IMG/VR virus record: IMGVR_UViG_3300042465_003514
Span: 1 to 31,758 of that record
From: a virus
Length of the DNA stretch: 31,758 nt
Reading direction: 5' to 3' (one strand)
Of the stretch, positions 4,642 through 19,437 are shown in pieces; position 1 is the first letter of the stretch; the number at the start of each line of letters is the position of its first letter. Made by a program: the position numbers and the translations under genes. Below the pieces are notes generated by a model that saw nothing but the letters and a program-made list of their open reading frames with translations, was not told the DNA's origin and did no database searches.

Positions 4642-6701
4642 TAATTAGTGTTTATTACTTTTAATAAATTTACAAGGGTTGTCCTGTAATCTGTCGGGTC
4701 GTATGAATCAATCCTGTTTAATCTAAACAATACGCCATTAATCCAAATATATTTGCTGAAATCCAAATTGTATATGTCAACCGCCGTTAAATAAACGCGA
4801 CAGGTCAACAACTTTGATTCCATATCTGTAATTTCCAAAATGTACGGTTTATTGTACGTATTGAATAAGTTGTTTGTCGGGTAAATAGACGCAGGAAATT
4901 GTAATTCCTTTGGTGCGCCAAAATTTAAGTCAACAGTCGGATTGGTCGGGTCGTCTAAGTGTCCTGCATATCCGTAAGTTGTTAAAGTTGCTAATGTACC
5001 GCCACCGTCGTTTTGTATTTTCCAATTTGAAACACCTGACAATTTCTTTGCCATTAAAATACGAATTACTGAATCCATAGGGTCTTCAGTTGTATTGTTA
5101 TTTGACAATTTATAAATTGAACTATGGTATTTGTCTTGTCCTGAATGCAAAACGATAACAGTTGGCGCAAAGATAATTTGCGTTGAAGCCGTATCTTTTA
5201 CAAAATCAAATTCAGAATCATAAATAAAATCCCCGTATGATTGACCGTACTTCTTTAAATAGTTATCATTGAAGTAATCCGTATCGGGTGTATATTTATA
5301 CGCATAATAACGCGCATTCAACTGTGACATTGGTTTAATTGACATTGTTGAAGCTGTGTCAATTTTTTGTGACCAATCCAAAGAATTTGTAACCGCATCC
5401 GAATAAAAGTCAATATAAGGTGCAATATTTATTTGTTTGTCGTTTATATTATCCTGATAAACGTACAAATTGAACATTTTACAAACTGATAAAAAGAAGT
5501 CTTTTTGAAATATTCCTTTTGGTAAGTTGTTATTGATTGAAACAGTACCATTGTAAGCAACTGTTGTCAACTGCGCAGCCAATTGAGTAAATGTAAAGTT
5601 TGCACTTGAAACGTTTACAATATAAGTATTTGCCGTAACCGGAACGCTTAATTCAATACGCACCTGATTCGTGTTTGCAATTGCGCCTGTCCAATCAAAA
5701 TTGAAAGTAAAAGGGTTATTTGCTGAAAACGTATTTTGTGTCAATGTTTGAACTGCAACACCTGCAACATATAAAGTCGCAGTAATTGACGAAGCGGCGT
5801 CTGTCTGATAAATACCCGTTATTGAAGCCAATGCATTAACTGTCTTTGTACCGTCAGTATAAGTAAAAATACTTTTTCCTGCATTTTCTGTGAAATTAAG
5901 TAAAGTCGTAGAATCAAAAGACAAATTTGCATTTCGCGCCGTTGGTGTATTACTGTTTAATATTGTTTTGGTTGCACTAATCGTGCCTAAAATAAATCTG
6001 TCATTCGTACCCTGAATTCCCTGACTATTGTTTGGGATAATAAGCTTTTTAAAAAAGTCTGTATTAAAAAAGTCGCAATTCAAACTGTACGAAGTACCTT
6101 CAAATATCTTTTCAATATATTCCTTTACAAATAATGCCGGTCTAAATGTTGAAACGTGGAAATCATCCTTATTGGTTGAAACGTCGCCGTAATCAATCAA
6201 TGGATAATAATAACCTGACCCGTTTATTGTATTCCAACTGTTCTGTATTGCAGTCACATTCCACGTATGATTGTATTCGCTAAAATCAAGGTCTTCAAGG
6301 CGCTTATTCCCCAATTCGGTAATAAACCCTGACAATTCCCCGAAAACCGCGCATTGGTATTCAATGATACCTTTATTCATTACTATTTCAAGGATTCTGA
6401 TAACGCCCTTAAATATCTGAATTTTATCAATATAAACTTCGCACTTCGCAGCCTGTGACGGCGTAAAGTTTGTCGCAACGTTCGGTAAATCCATATTATG
6501 TTCGTGCGCCATTCCTAAATCAAAAGCAAAACCCAATATTTGGTTATTCTTTGCAGTTGCAGGAATTGATATTGTACGGCTAAAGGACGTATTGCGGCTT
6601 CCAAAATCGCGCACGTCGTCAATCGTGTACGTGAAATCCGTTCCAATGTCCTTTAATAAATCAATTGCGTTGTCTTCAATATAAATTTCGGTTCTAATCA
6701 T
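4641..6701 (-). CDS. Tail tip/baseplate-type protein
   Basis: This 686-residue protein has no transmembrane segment and is beta-rich throughout, with many N/T/Y residues. It overlaps the tape measure gene and the preceding tail gene by one base each, so the three are translationally linked. The N-terminal 150 residues (MIRTEIYIEDNAIDLLKDIG, then RDFGSRNTSFSRTISIPAT) match the opening I associate with large tail-associated proteins of Bacteroidota siphophages. Residues about 250-390 look like an inserted beta-sandwich, possibly a carbohydrate-binding or receptor-contacting module. A tail-tip or Tal-like role is inferred from size, neighbours and composition; no enzymatic motif is visible. Confidence 0.6.
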   Translation of the reverse strand: MIRTEIYIEDNAIDLLKDIGTDFTYTIDDVRDFGSRNTSFSRTISIPATAKNNQILGFAFDLGMAHEHNMDLPNVATNFTPSQAAKCEVYIDKIQIFKGVIRILEIVMNKGIIEYQCAVFGELSGFITELGNKRLEDLDFSEYNHTWNVTAIQNSWNTINGSGYYYPLIDYGDVSTNKDDFHVSTFRPALFVKEYIEKIFEGTSYSLNCDFFNTDFFKKLIIPNNSQGIQGTNDRFILGTISATKTILNSNTPTARNANLSFDSTTLLNFTENAGKSIFTYTDGTKTVNALASITGIYQTDAASSITATLYVAGVAVQTLTQNTFSANNPFTFNFDWTGAIANTNQVRIELSVPVTANTYIVNVSSANFTFTQLAAQLTTVAYNGTVSINNNLPKGIFQKDFFLSVCKMFNLYVYQDNINDKQINIAPYIDFYSDAVTNSLDWSQKIDTASTMSIKPMSQLNARYYAYKYTPDTDYFNDNYLKKYGQSYGDFIYDSEFDFVKDTASTQIIFAPTVIVLHSGQDKYHSSIYKLSNNNTTEDPMDSVIRILMAKKLSGVSNWKIQNDGGGTLATLTTYGYAGHLDDPTNPTVDLNFGAPKELQFPASIYPTNNLFNTYNKPYILEITDMESKLLTCRVYLTAVDIYNLDFSKYIWINGVLFRLNRIDSYDPTDYRTTLVNLLKVINTN

Positions 6702-9967: not shown

Positions 9968-10025
9968 CCCCGCCCGCGACATAACTAACACCCCTGTTAA
10001 TAATTGATTGTTGAATTGGACGGGG
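9968..10025 (-). other. RNA hairpin with long loop before the winged-helix gene
   Basis: On the minus strand CCCCGTCC pairs with GGGCGGGG (8 bp, one G-U) across a loop of about 42 bases. A competing pairing of CCCC with AGGGG inside the loop is possible. No U-tract follows, so it is not a terminator. It fills most of the 83-base spacer between the genes at 10032 and 9948. Confidence 0.35.
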
Positions 10026-10031
10026 ACAATA

Positions 10032-10208
10032 TTATTGGTTAACGTCTGCCATTGCTAAATTAACCATTTTTATTTGAATTCTTAAATCTTTAATTTCCTT
10101 TTCCTTCAACCCTAATTCCTTTTCCAATTTCGTAATCCTTTCAATTAAGCATTCGTTTTCAAGGCGAAGCAAATATTCCTGACCCATTAAATATTGATTC
10201 TTTGACAT
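10032..10208 (-). CDS. Small coiled-coil protein, 58 aa
   Basis: A 58-residue frame starts at ATG 10208 (MSKNQYLMGQEYLLRLENE). Residues 10-45 have a regular pattern of L/I with K/E at flanking positions (ERITKLEKELGLKEKEIKDL), so a single long coiled coil is likely. It lies in the P_A small-gene block between two structured spacers. The composition and coding pattern match its neighbours and it fills a stretch that otherwise has no gene. Similar short coiled-coil proteins are common in phages without known roles. I do not recognise it. Confidence 0.6.
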   Translation of the reverse strand: MSKNQYLMGQEYLLRLENECLIERITKLEKELGLKEKEIKDLRIQIKMVNLAMADVNQ

Positions 10209-11061: not shown

Positions 11062-12209
11062 GCGAAGGCGTAACGCCCTGAACCGCGTTTGATATTATGA
11101 TTTTGCCACGCTAAAGCCAAAGCCATTACGGTATCGTCGTGGAATCCTGAAGGTGCTGAATACCTTACGCCGTGCGAAGTAAACTGATATTCAAAAACGT
11201 CCAATTCGTCCACAATAACCCCTTCCGGGAATCCGATTCGTCCCTGTTGAATAGCGGACGCTAAACCTTCCATTAACTGTTGTTTGGATTGACTTGTAAA
11301 TTTCAAACCTTCAATGTTTACCCCTTCGCGAAGTAAGTCTTCTAATATCGGGTCGCCAACCCCTGTTGAATCCACCACAATTGGCGCAGGCGGCAACCTT
11401 TTAATTGTTTCTTTGGTGTTATGCCAATCCATTTGGAAACGGTCAAAATATGCCACGTTGCCGTCTTTATCCAATCCAATAATAACTGTATAATCCACAG
11501 ACTTTGCAAGGTCAATGCCATAACAAACAATCGGTTGCGCTGAAATAGGTTTTACGCAGCGTTTAATGAATGCGTTTCCAAAAGGGTTTGCGCTATTCTC
11601 GGACGGGTTCGCCATATATTCCTGTTCAAATACTACTTCAGGTAATTGAATTCGCGCTTCGTCTATTTCGCGCGGGTTAATATGCGGGTTGTCGTACGTG
11701 CTAAACTTAAAGCTTTGCCAATCGTTTTCGCCCTGTTTCATAAACAAGGAATAAAAGAAGTTTTTGCCACGTGGCGTTGAAAGGAAAACCGCCTTCCCTT
11801 CATAGTCGGTCAGCGTCGGGCGTATGCTATTATTCCAACCGTCTTCAAGGTCAGCAATAAACGCAGCTTCGTCCACAATAACCAAATGGAACTTACGACC
11901 GCGCAAGTTGTCTAAACGTTCCCCTGTAAAAAATTCAATTGACCCTTCGTTGGGACAATAGATTTTAAGCTTTGAAATATTACTTTTAAATGGAAGTACC
12001 TTCGCCAATCGTTCAAAGAATACTTGCGCTAATCCGTATGTTGGTGTAATGTATGCAACCTGTCCGCCTTTTAATGCTTCTTTGATTATTAATATTTGCG
12101 ACAATTCAGACTTACCAAAACGACGTCCGCACATAACGACAATAAAACGCTTGTCGGCGTTCAATATCTTTTCCTGATTCGCGTGTGGTGTTGGCAGTTC
12201 TATGCGCAT
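11058..12209 (-). CDS. terL: Terminase large subunit
   Basis: This 383-residue motor packages DNA into proheads. The N-terminal ATPase has Walker A CGRRFGKSE (27-35), Walker B LVIVDE (109-114) and coupling motif FLSTPRG (142-148). The C-terminal nuclease has an RNase H-like acidic set: D233 in YGIDLA, D280 in VVDSTG and H357-D358-D359 in GFHDDTVMA. The protein is on the short side for the family but all motifs are present. It starts one base after the small-subunit stop, so the two are coupled. The stop codon overlaps the degenerate operator copy of P_A. The call is secure. Confidence 0.95.
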   Translation of the reverse strand: MRIELPTPHANQEKILNADKRFIVVMCGRRFGKSELSQILIIKEALKGGQVAYITPTYGLAQVFFERLAKVLPFKSNISKLKIYCPNEGSIEFFTGERLDNLRGRKFHLVIVDEAAFIADLEDGWNNSIRPTLTDYEGKAVFLSTPRGKNFFYSLFMKQGENDWQSFKFSTYDNPHINPREIDEARIQLPEVVFEQEYMANPSENSANPFGNAFIKRCVKPISAQPIVCYGIDLAKSVDYTVIIGLDKDGNVAYFDRFQMDWHNTKETIKRLPPAPIVVDSTGVGDPILEDLLREGVNIEGLKFTSQSKQQLMEGLASAIQQGRIGFPEGVIVDELDVFEYQFTSHGVRYSAPSGFHDDTVMALALAWQNHNIKRGSGRYAFA

Positions 12210-17561: not shown

Positions 17562-18285
17562 AATATTTAACTAAAGCTAATTTTTTACATTGTGTTTCAA
17601 TAAAATCTTCATTTTTTATGTTTTTGCTGAATTGTTTTGCGTCTAAAGGATGCATTTTATTCAATCTTTGCAAATTATCTTCGCGTACTACCTGTATTGT
17701 GTACAAAATTTCTTCAGGCGTAAAGTTTAACTTCTTCTGTTTCAATAGTATAGCAAATACTTTGTCAGCATTAAATACCTTGTTAAAGTCCTCACGCTTA
17801 CCATTTAACCATTCGTTTTTTGTAAATTCAACAATTTGTTCGTCGGTCAATTGCGGAACGGGCGGTTCAGGCGGAGGCGGGATATTTTTACGTACTTCGT
17901 TTGCTTTGGCTTTATAGGCATTCATTATTTGGGATATGTATTTAGGCGAAAACTTTTCAAAATGGTCTGTATTGCATTCAAAACGACCTTGTACCGCCAT
18001 TTTAAAAGCTATTCTGAATTCATTTATTGTAAAATGCGGATAAGTTGTACGAATATAGTCTTCAATTATATCCAATTCCATTTTATCCGGCAACCTCGTT
18101 AAGCCAATTAAAGTGAAAATATAAGCCAATGTGCTTTTTAAATTATGCACGTCAACAATTGCTAATTTTTCGCCTTTAAAAGCTTCAACAATCGGTAAAT
18201 CTTCTTTAGCTATTAACCCAATCGGAAAGTCCTTCCATTCGTTTGCGGCTTGCGGCAGTTGGGTCAGTATTTTTTGTATTTCCAT
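17542..18285 (-). CDS. Possible primosome protein, 247 aa
   Basis: The protein is helical and charged with a proline stretch (IPPPPEPPVPQ) near residue 135 that separates two parts. The first part ends in a pattern (IEDYIRTTYPHFTINEFRIA, then KFSPKYISQIMNAYK) that I associate with phage proteins encoded next to Lin1244-like replication proteins. The second is a helical domain. Its first 80 bases overlap the end of that replication gene in another frame. A helicase-loader-like or primosomal function is suggested by position and architecture only. I do not recognise a catalytic motif. Confidence 0.55.
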   Translation of the reverse strand: MEIQKILTQLPQAANEWKDFPIGLIAKEDLPIVEAFKGEKLAIVDVHNLKSTLAYIFTLIGLTRLPDKMELDIIEDYIRTTYPHFTINEFRIAFKMAVQGRFECNTDHFEKFSPKYISQIMNAYKAKANEVRKNIPPPPEPPVPQLTDEQIVEFTKNEWLNGKREDFNKVFNADKVFAILLKQKKLNFTPEEILYTIQVVREDNLQRLNKMHPLDAKQFSKNIKNEDFIETQCKKLALVKYFENLSN

Positions 18286-18910
18286 ATTTTATGCGATTTT
18301 GTAACCACGTATTCACGCGGCGTTTAATATCAAAAAACTTTTCTAATTCATAACGCAATTTACCACTTTTTGACGGTTCGCACCAATAAGCAATAAATTC
18401 TTCGTAAGATTCAGCTAAAGTATTTTTAAAAGGTTCAATTAAAATTAAAAAGTTTGTTTGTGGGTCAACCGTAGGTTGAACAGTTATAATACTATTTACT
18501 TTACTTTCTTTTACTTTACTTTTCTTTTCTTTATGGTCGTTACGAACACTTTTGTAATGCGTTACATTTTCTGCAATGTCCTGATTTTCACGCCATTGTG
18601 AAATTCTTTTAAGGTTTTTTTCTTTTTTTATCTTGTACTTTTCACTAAAGTTTAGCAATTGTTTGTTGAAAGTTTCGCCATTGTTTGATGAAATTATGTC
18701 AATACTTTCCATAAAGTTCCAACATTTTTCAAGCTTTTTACCAACTTTTAATTGCATTTTTAGCACTTCAGTATTAACAGGCTTTTCCTGTTTAGCTAAC
18801 TTTTCAAGGATAGTATAAAACAATCCCAAACCTTCATAACCGTATTTCATAAAAAGCAAAGCAACCTTTTCATCTTCAAATGCATTGCTATCGTGTAAAA
18901 AATATTTCAT
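18206..18910 (-). CDS. Replication protein with Lin1244/Lin1753-like N-terminus (DUF4373)
   Basis: The 234-residue protein opens MKYFLHDSNAFEDEKVALLF and continues YGYEGLGLFYTILEKLA, the hallmark of the Lin1244/Lin1753-like N-terminal domain (DUF4373), a winged-helix related to phage replication initiators. Residues 100-135 are K/S-rich. The C-terminal part (FFDIKRRVNTWLQNRIKYG, then SRKRMEGLSDWVN) fits the helical tail. Its ATG sits three bases after the T6 of a terminator-like hairpin within a structured leader, so its expression is likely regulated at RNA level. It overlaps the following gene by 80 bases. Confidence 0.8.
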   Translation of the reverse strand: MKYFLHDSNAFEDEKVALLFMKYGYEGLGLFYTILEKLAKQEKPVNTEVLKMQLKVGKKLEKCWNFMESIDIISSNNGETFNKQLLNFSEKYKIKKEKNLKRISQWRENQDIAENVTHYKSVRNDHKEKKSKVKESKVNSIITVQPTVDPQTNFLILIEPFKNTLAESYEEFIAYWCEPSKSGKLRYELEKFFDIKRRVNTWLQNRIKYGNTKNTDPTAASRKRMEGLSDWVNS

Positions 18911-18913
18911 AAT

Positions 18914-19002
18914 AAAAAAGGGTCGCGGGACGCCGGCAAATGGTACTTGCCGAAAATCCGTTGACCCAATATATTCCTAACTGCGTTGTACCATAACGCG
19001 TT
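18914..19002 (-). ncRNA. Structured leader with complementary hairpin loops before the replication gene
   Basis: On the minus strand hairpin I is GCGTT-ATGGTAC-AACGC (18983-18999, extended by AAC/GTT around a bulge). Hairpin II is CGGCAA-GTACCAT-TTGCCG (18934-18952). The two 7-base loops are perfectly complementary, so a loop-loop contact is possible. Hairpin II is enclosed by GGGTC/GACCC and CGG/CCG (18920-18967), followed by T6 and the ATG at 18910. This would act as an attenuator or translational control. A DNA-level use as operator or origin is the alternative. Confidence 0.6.
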
Positions 19003-19005
19003 TAT

Positions 19006-19437
19006 TTATTTCCTGTCTGCAAATATAATGCTTTTTTCAATTCTTTTTTCAAGGAATGCAATTTTATTTCTGAACCAATCTGCGGTTTCAATTAAATCCT
19101 TTGCGGAATTGATATTGTACATTACTGTCGTATGGTTGCCAACCCCAATGTATTGTCTTATTTCGCTTAGTGACAATGTTGTGTATTTTCTGATTAAATA
19201 CGCCGCCGCCTTCCTTGCGTCAACAATATTTTTGGTTCGGCTTCTTACTGACATATTCACGTCAAATATTTCCTCAACAATCAAAGATATTTTCTTTGCT
19301 TCATTTGACAATTCAGGGTCAATAATAACTTCTTCCTGTTTTATTAAATTGTTTGCCTTCATTATATTGTGCAACATTCTTAAACTTTGTCTGTGCGACT
19401 TGTAAAAGTCTAAAATTTCGCTTTGTAATGTTTGCAT
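19006..19437 (-). CDS. Stand-alone DnaA domain IV-like DNA-binding protein
   Basis: The 143-residue protein has, at residues 72-110, the helix-turn-helix core of DnaA domain IV: DARKAAAYLIRKYTTLSLSE, IRQYIGV and NHTTVMYNI, the last matching the DnaA signature DHTTV. No AAA+ ATPase region is present. The N-terminal half is helical (about residues 1-60). Such truncated DnaA-like proteins in phages may bind DnaA boxes at a phage origin or repress host initiation; which applies here is unknown. The gene ends inside promoter P_C that leads into the replication-initiator leader. Confidence 0.75.
   Translation of the reverse strand: MQTLQSEILDFYKSHRQSLRMLHNIMKANNLIKQEEVIIDPELSNEAKKISLIVEEIFDVNMSVRSRTKNIVDARKAAAYLIRKYTTLSLSEIRQYIGVGNHTTVMYNINSAKDLIETADWFRNKIAFLEKRIEKSIIFADRK
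19020..19052 (-). promoter_or_regulatory. Promoter P_C candidate (TTG-N22-TATATTTG)
   Basis: TATATTTG at 19020-19027 has a TTG 22 bases upstream (19050-19052), within the Flavobacterium TTG-N17-23-TAnnTTTG range. It overlaps the end of the DnaA-like gene. A start near 19013 would produce an RNA beginning with hairpin I of the leader. The octamer also occurs by chance in coding frames, so this needs mapping. Confidence 0.5.

Follow-up and report, generated by a model that had tools for sequence, protein, structure and literature searches.

The question raised by this locus is whether two neighbouring hairpins, with loops that are exact complements of each other and located just before a replication initiation gene, form a single RNA control element. 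The window, which is the whole stretch of DNA analysed here, corresponds to a 31,758-base virus record. On its minus strand, an upstream ORF of 143 amino acids with a DnaA helix-turn-helix domain (PF08299; 19006–19437), which provides the context and lies outside the RNA, is followed by a 95-nt gap and then by the first gene, an ORF of 234 amino acids (18206–18910) with a Lin1244_N domain (PF14297) and a PHROG assignment to replication initiation.

Parts of the leader

The candidate promoter consists of a TTG (19050–19052), its possible −33 part, and of the box TATATTTG (19020–19027), a candidate −7 element of the form TAnnTTTG, with a spacing of N22 between the two on the minus strand. The box lies inside the 3′ end of the upstream DnaA_C ORF, and the combination of TTG and TAnnTTTG is taken here to be a promoter of the Bacteroidetes type. 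Hairpin I (18983–18999, minus strand, as are all of the following parts) is made of GCGTT (18999–18995), the loop ATGGTAC (18994–18988), and AACGC (18987–18983). A linker (18968–18982) connects it to a terminator-like hairpin. In the latter, an outer helix (18920–18967), read from the sequence and from folding, pairs GGGTC (18967–18963) with GACCC (18924–18920), with further pairs between CGG (18960–18958) and CCG (18928–18926), and surrounds hairpin II (18934–18952), which is composed of CGGCAA (18952–18947), the loop GTACCAT (18946–18940), and TTGCCG (18939–18934). Directly 3′ of the outer helix, a T6 tract (18914–18919) is followed by ATT and by the ATG (18910–18908) of the 234-amino-acid ORF. 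The loops ATGGTAC and GTACCAT are exact complements, and the comparison of leaders described below places a 7-bp loop-loop helix between 18994–18988 and 18946–18940 (overall 18940–18994). The TTG-N22-box, both hairpins, the outer helix, the T6 tract and the ATG had all been listed in the initial annotation and hold at these positions.

Folding of the isolated leader gave −29.1 kcal/mol compared with −22.4 ± 3.6 in shuffles (z = −1.86, with 10 of 200 shuffles as good), and the fold energy of the lone sequence is only suggestive. In the minimum-energy fold, loop II (18946–18940) is further closed by one G-U and one U-A pair, which would compete with the kissing helix and would have to open for full kissing. 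A simple terminator scan, the rule of which is one unbroken stem, did not have this hairpin in its list. The composite scan described below found one element in the window, in which neither a tRNA nor an Rfam family was found.

The ATG contained in loop I opens a reading frame that a TAG closes after five codons in the window. In one window-like leader (L015), this ATG is in frame with rep without a stop, and a 262-amino-acid form would result. Leaders L010, L013, and L014 have the same base as L015 at that stop site, and an in-frame loop ATG was not seen in other families.

Loop complementarity and covariation among related leaders

Relatives were gathered from IMG/VR by protein (44 loci, the best 80 of 204, the best 80 of 205, and the best 80 of 131), and 76 further stretches were obtained there with a pattern combining a U-run and a start. 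The leader set was derived from 354 sequences, many of them overlapping, which gave 268 ORF starts of the MKY[FY] type and finally 97 unique leaders of 130 nt. A strict test for kissing hairpins demanded that each stem have 5 or more pairs, that 7 or more loop bases be complementary, and that the two hairpins lie within fixed distance limits from the ATG. The leaders entered this test without selection for pairing, the distance limits having been fixed after a first look at the leaders. Strict kissing hairpins were present in 57 of the 97 unique rep leaders; the test was passed by 6 of the 1,940 dinucleotide shuffles and by 18 of the 4,596 other upstream regions. When the distance limit was dropped, the corresponding counts were 60/97, 62/1,940, and 124/4,596. 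By reading, 13 of the 18 control matches were the same element, met on the opposite strand or ahead of a different ORF, one was an ORF in locus L336, and four were A+T-rich. The 57 kissing leaders are related sequences and not independent: the 97 leaders formed 34 clusters at 80% identity, and strict kissing leaders were distributed in seven of these, with nine different loop pairs in the strict set. Among the 40 leaders that failed the strict test, looser forms were visible by eye in L031, L034, L040, L075, L087, L107, and L112; five failures had the element before an inserted ORF, and the others showed none next to the gene.

The loop of the 5′ hairpin is hereafter called L1 and that of the terminator-like hairpin L2. 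A composite scan, in which a box, a 5′ hairpin, a complementary loop, a terminator helix, and a U-run were searched together, produced 102 matches in 223 non-redundant loci (1.87 Mb) versus 2 in two shuffled copies. The value of 102, in which L377 and L432 each enter twice from two boxes, is not a frequency because many of the loci had been fetched for their rep gene or for the CTCTCAC pattern. In total 35 distinct L2 7-mers were recovered, some of them by chance, and the matches located inside genes in L022 (minus strand), L454, and L390 were likely of this kind. With the box and the U-run being part of the search, the medians of the matches placed the start of L1 16 nt after TTTG, L2 42 nt after L1, and the end of L2 12 nt before the U-run.

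The flanking parts accompanied the kissing loops. TAnnTTTG was found at the window-like distance in 39/57 kissing leaders versus 7/40 other rep leaders (Fisher p = 6e-7, a value that is too small because the leaders are related), and, with one mismatch allowed, in 56/57 versus 18/40. A T5 tract at most 32 nt from the ATG was present in 56/57 kissing leaders versus 14/40 others, so that 56 of the 70 leaders with such a tract were strict kissing leaders. In 55 of 56 kissing leaders the U-run was reached by a stem of at least 4 pairs, and these stems had 12 different sequences. The terminator-like hairpin noticed before the start codon in the initial annotation is thus conserved, both as a helix and as a U-run. 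Across the leaders, the promoter box, the 5′ hairpin, the linker, the hairpin with the complementary loop, and the U-run were constant; variation concerned the sequences, the gene that follows and, in a minority of leaders, the spacing to the ATG. An internal loop, UGAA ... GGA, was seen by eye between the outer helix and hairpin II in L022, L024, L252, L260, L263, L265, and L272, and could have its own role.

Covariation was followed in two alignments, A4 with 11 window-like leaders and A3 with 18 L099-like leaders. Both were picked from leaders seen to pair, therefore the percentages of pairing are partly a matter of choice and the double changes constitute the evidence. In A4, the 77 cells of the kissing helix were all paired, with double changes in five of the seven pairs. 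Double changes also affected three of the five stem pairs of hairpin I (91.8% of the cells paired) and five of the six stem pairs of hairpin II, in which every cell was paired. The whole structure was 97.9% paired in A4 versus 71.1% in shuffles, none of the 500 shuffles reaching the observed value, and with the partners slid the pairing was 30–44%. In A3, the kissing helix was 97.2% paired with double changes in four of eight pairs, and the whole structure 93.2% paired versus 84.3% in shuffles (0/500 reaching 93.2%) and 29–51% with slid partners. RNAalifold, unaided, predicted both hairpins in A3; in A4 it predicted hairpin II together with a portion of the outer helix and missed hairpin I, the 3′ arm of which is misaligned by gaps.

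A fairer set was provided by 37 leaders that had been retrieved through their protein and selected on flanking sequence only, not on pairing. Here 284 of the 289 kissing cells were standard pairs, and one kissing pair occurred as A-U 20 times, C-G 10 times, and G-C 6 times, with no mismatch in 36. A 58-row alignment adds 21 rows found by their loop pattern and was left out of the evidence for pairing. Wobbles in the stems of A3 and A4 together amounted to 24 G-U versus 3 A-C, with 15 of the 24 G-U in one column; the corresponding numbers in the 58-row set were 10 versus 5 in the stems and 4 versus 0 in the kissing helix. Faster change in the loops than in the hairpin stems was not seen in A4 or A3.

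Covariation, on which the initial annotation had staked its proposal of an RNA element with loop-loop pairing in the initiator leader, was therefore found in the stems and in the loop-loop helix of A4 and A3, and in the loop-loop helix of the 37 unselected leaders. The leader looks like a real RNA control element because other phages keep the pairing while the letters change, and a kissing-hairpin fold of the leader RNA appears nearly certain. As far as these alignments tell, what is conserved is the complementarity and not the loop sequence. Comparison thus showed the predicted fold, the loop-loop pairing, the order of the parts, and their wide spread among phage contigs.

Distribution and downstream genes

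A pattern restricted to one loop pair, TATATTTG ... GTGAGAG ... CTCTCAC, matched 94 virus loci in IMG/VR. The scrambled control CACTCTC gave 5 matches, each containing CACTCTCAC, which is the real pattern, leaving 0 independent control matches. Among the 62 unique elements of these 94 loci, T5 was located at most 30 nt after L2 in 59, and a stem of at least 4 pairs surrounded GTGAGAG in 46. In isolated phages, the composite scan matched 7 of 9 fetched records, upstream of the replication operon (tooticki, lillamy, hemulen, elemoB, elemoC, 11b, and Harreka_1, with 4 distinct leaders), and the isolates with the element included Flavobacterium and Olleya phages. Two Cellulophaga phages were missed by the scan; by eye, they showed CTCTCACAA/TTGTGAGAG with a weak first stem.

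At least three relatives were present in genome contigs, all of them in MAG contigs, two under deltaproteobacterial names that perhaps correspond to misbinned phage. R1, a covariance model derived from the A3 alignment, is limited to the L099-like form and was used with strict filters. In 395 genomes from the phylum of the MAG holding L126, its 4 matches were apparent plain terminators without kissing loops; given the limits of the model, no claim is made on cellular genomes. In 37 sources, 17 matches with E values up to 1 were obtained with R1, which missed the elements of the window, L031, L040, L075, L357, L361, and L362, so that to such a model the families are not one alignable RNA. The Lin1244 rep protein had no match among INPHARED phages, the N-terminus of the DUF6291-type rep had none among plasmids, and blastn of the leader in phages returned a single 29-base match (E 0.5), which was uninformative.

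The element had been described as the leader of a DUF4373-type replication gene. It does precede an initiator gene, but this description proved too narrow, as the choice of gene is not fixed: the element is also followed by small ORFs and by genes for HNH endonucleases, for a helicase, and for initiators in which the N-terminal domain is a different one. The genes found after it, with one representative of each, carry the initiator-like N-terminal domains Lin1244_N (PF14297) or DUF6291 (PF19808), or encode a DnaD-like helicase loader (phrog_2514), a replisome organizer (phrog_6251), or replication initiation proteins of the HTH_36 type (phrog_270 and phrog_4707). DUF7833 was recognised in two first-gene families, below the cut-off in one, and 38 of the 60 first ORFs of the pattern elements fell into one blastp cluster through a shared C-terminal part. 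The N-terminal domains are thus unlike, but with their shared C-terminal parts the initiator proteins are not wholly unrelated. The element was also present before proteins sharing only the C-terminal part of the rep query, for example GGTCTCAC/GTGAGACC in L263, and by eye no element was visible in many of the 41 loci with such C-terminal-only similarity. When a small ORF or an HNH-like gene came first, an initiator-like gene was second in 9 of 18 such or unusual cases, the names being given by eye. A DEAD helicase gene followed an element in L031, and HNH-type endonuclease genes did so in L357 and L443; HNH-like ORFs near structural-looking genes were noticed by eye in L399, L400, L409, and L439. 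As a leader, the element is portable; it mostly belongs to replication operons and is not part of any single gene.

Two further post-element genes were observed. The gene product at 4715–5500 of L450 (plus strand) combines the C-terminal domain of an RNA polymerase alpha subunit with a weak match to sigma region 4, below the cut-off, and is possibly a phage transcription factor. In L336, at approximately 10014–10110 on the minus strand of a 102-kb contig, a kissing pair ATGCAAC/GTTGCAT and a U-run stand before a GIY-YIG-like ORF (named by eye). The scan found no TAnnTTTG box in this leader, and the protein search gave 3 loci, one of them from L336's own contig.

Several phages carry more than one element. 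In L357 (Flavobacterium phage tooticki6-1) elements were located at 11590 and 12625, and in L365 (hemulen9-1) at 97 and 1132, all on the plus strand and with loops that differ between the two positions: an endonuclease gene (gp032 in tooticki) is preceded by AGTCGTCG/ACGACGAC, and the replication operon by GTGAGACG/CGTCTCAC. L438 has two complete tandem elements on the plus strand (7747 and 7902), about 155 nt apart, upstream of a 358-amino-acid ORF, again with different loops (GTGGAAG/CTTCCAC and GTGAGAG/CTCTCAC). In L031 (plus strand, 2135 and 4877), GTTACTAC/GTAGTAAC precedes the DEAD-helicase-like gene and AACACAC/GTGTGTT precedes rep. The 63-kb record IMGVR_UViG_3300043436_001856 (L003 and L008) carries the replication region twice, at a distance of about 32 kb and with ATGGTAC/GTACCAT in each copy; it may consist of two related phages joined in the assembly, or be a real concatemer.

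Possible modes of action

We propose that the element acts in cis as a leader RNA before the replication operon and attenuates transcription to a degree that is tuned by loop-loop pairing, and we consider this reading of the sequences probable. In the model, a leader RNA of about 100 nt would start at the TAnnTTTG promoter and would end, at the U-run, in the intrinsic-terminator-like hairpin before the first gene of the operon. While this hairpin is being made, its apical loop would be kissed by the 5′ hairpin loop, which would alter the fraction of polymerases stopping at the U-run, and the changed stopping would set the amount of initiator made. Promoter activity, termination, and the signal are inferred; that the leader sets the initiator level is plausible. 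Termination is put forward as the controlled step because the U-run adjoins the second hairpin and L2 would emerge as the polymerase arrives: in view of the footprint of RNA polymerase, the median distance between the end of L2 and the U-run suggests that L2 should emerge at about the time when the polymerase reaches the U-run. A classical terminator/antiterminator pair is not indicated because the covarying helices can all form together, and RNAalifold's single consensus structure per group (A4 and A3) contained no helix rivalling the terminator stem. As these helices are not mutually exclusive, kissing would shift the kinetics or the stability of the terminator, in either direction, and would not replace it.

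In the boldest version of the model, the signal would be phage gene dosage, read out when terminated leaders kiss other leaders in trans. These leaders would accumulate as the phage copies rise, and their L2 would capture the L1 of newborn leaders before the newborn L2 has been made, changing termination, so that the antisense partner would be built into the sense leader. Indeed L2 reads as the loop of an antisense RNA against L1 would, similar leaders are told apart by single-pair changes such as that from GTAGGAGT/ACTCCTAC to GTCGGAGT/ACTCCGAC, and the loops differ between the two elements of one contig (L357, L438, L031, L443, L366, and L034). However, differing loops are also expected from an independent origin of the elements, the tethered L1-L2 pairing should beat pairing in trans, loop pairs change no more often than hairpin stems, and the two copies of 3300043436_001856 have the same loops, although they may belong to two joined phages. 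We regard this self-antisense version as doubtful. If it were true, a matching co-infecting phage would also regulate the initiator in trans with a specificity encoded in the loops, which would create phage incompatibility groups without any antisense gene. Control by a separate antisense RNA, considered in the initial annotation, is not supported so far: antisense TAnnTTTG boxes within 200 nt were not enriched (14/101 versus 15.7 expected), and none was found on the plus strand of the window between 18501 and 19060.

The kissing fold could alternatively govern ribosome access to the first gene from its place beside the start codon. The position of the first ORF, which starts 20–30 nt after L2 in 52 of the 60 pattern elements having an ORF, even when a small ORF comes first, leaves room for such translational control, and a third copy of L1 was seen by eye directly before the ATG in L031, L034, and L275. 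This copy is not general (2/101 near the ATG versus 1.05 expected), the start context and the gene vary, and the first ORF of at least 50 amino acids lies 45–50 nt after the terminator in tooticki, L253, and L268, which makes translational control unlikely. That the terminated leader is itself the product, either as a compact small RNA or as a 5′ fold shielding the mRNA from decay, would agree with its own promoter-like box and terminator-like hairpin and with covarying helices that fit one fold; the same short and set distance to an ORF, often the first gene of the replication operon, is a site that a free small RNA would not need, and we hold this view to be quite unlikely. A riboswitch, or a binding site for one protein, would account for the position in the leader, for a terminator resembling the expression platforms of riboswitches, and for the UGAA/GGA internal loop recurring by eye in part of the set. 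Against this, the loops are free to vary while pairing, and no base common to all families was seen by eye, without a formal cross-family alignment. For this latter reason the ligand control entertained in the initial annotation is unlikely in its small-ligand form, and the riboswitch or protein-site reading as a whole is very unlikely. At the gathering score, Rfam gave no match over the element, to a riboswitch or otherwise, in the window or in 25 further loci, and the initial annotation had recognised no known riboswitch class; the only gathering-level match elsewhere in those loci was one tRNA in L364, and the matches obtained in evalue mode were far below the gathering threshold.

The 7-bp repeat is also an inverted repeat in DNA and adjoins the initiator gene, and an operator or an origin, bound as duplex or extruded, had been mentioned as another option. 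Such a DNA element would not require the flanking stems to be coordinated, nor an outer helix and a U-run to follow a promoter box. It is made highly improbable by the way in which the flanking stems, the loops, and the terminator helix change in step, while the wobbles in the stems of A3 and A4 and in the stems and kissing helix of the 58-row set lean to the sense RNA and the GC skew keeps its sign across the site. The self-complementarity of GTAC and the modest z of the lone fold would suit two ordinary hairpins that happen to match, but the covariation and the enrichment counts refute chance, the probability of which we consider negligible.

The cis-acting attenuator, the reading that we prefer, can be compared with known systems. 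The RNAI and RNAII of ColE1 also have complementary 7-nt loops, for which complete pairing is possible, but these belong to two RNAs engaged in primer control with the Rop protein, whereas here a single RNA, the leader of an mRNA, would carry both loops. The put RNA of phage HK022 is an early-transcript leader with two stem-loops acting on RNA polymerase; it is an antiterminator that is not known to possess a terminator of its own or to engage in loop-loop pairing. The repC gene of pT181 encodes a replication initiator, and in the leaders of the I-complex a leader peptide is encoded and a pseudoknot lies close to the start codon. In PMC4878617, the pT181 repC attenuator is described with a 5′ sensing hairpin, an intrinsic terminator before the gene, and kissing as the first contact; an initiator leader, a 5′ hairpin, a terminator or terminator-like hairpin before the gene, and kissing are therefore common to both. 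The same paper describes a trans antisense RNA partner and an antiterminator in the 5′ hairpin that rivals the terminator (PMC4878617), whereas in the phage leader the partner loop lies inside the terminator-like hairpin, the covarying helices are not rivals, and the antisense box is not enriched. According to PMC10724649, loop pairing also controls the rep mRNA in the I-complex leaders (IncI, IncB/O, IncK; RNAI and stem-loop I), where single loop changes alter specificity and the action is on translation with a trans antisense RNA. As judged by covariation, the phage leader resembles these in that a loop of the stem-loop I type pairs with a downstream site in the same leader; it differs by its terminator-like hairpin and by the lack of enrichment in leader ORFs running through the terminator (25/92 versus 40 expected). 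The HMP-PP (thiS) riboswitch, as presented in PMC6478431, is a compact leader with the sensing part in the terminator hairpin, but its loop sequence is conserved and binds a ligand, whereas the phage loops vary and keep their complementarity.

No description of this element was found in the literature searched, the scope of which left out most subscription journals and all preprints. A keyword search gave no match in PMC2965389, and PMC8040213 names palindromic Bacteroidetes candidates, one of which (HMP_4078) lies near phage genes. Pending experiments, we regard the element as a putative cis kissing attenuator, akin to the kissing-controlled rep leaders. A structured RNA element without Rfam match is thus found repeatedly ahead of replication operons, in diverse phages that include isolates whose hosts are in culture. 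If termination is controlled, it would represent a cis kissing attenuator, a design without precedent found in the papers searched, and would offer a ready set of loop-specific parts. If the leaders also act in trans, phage copy control and co-infection would become testable by loop swaps.
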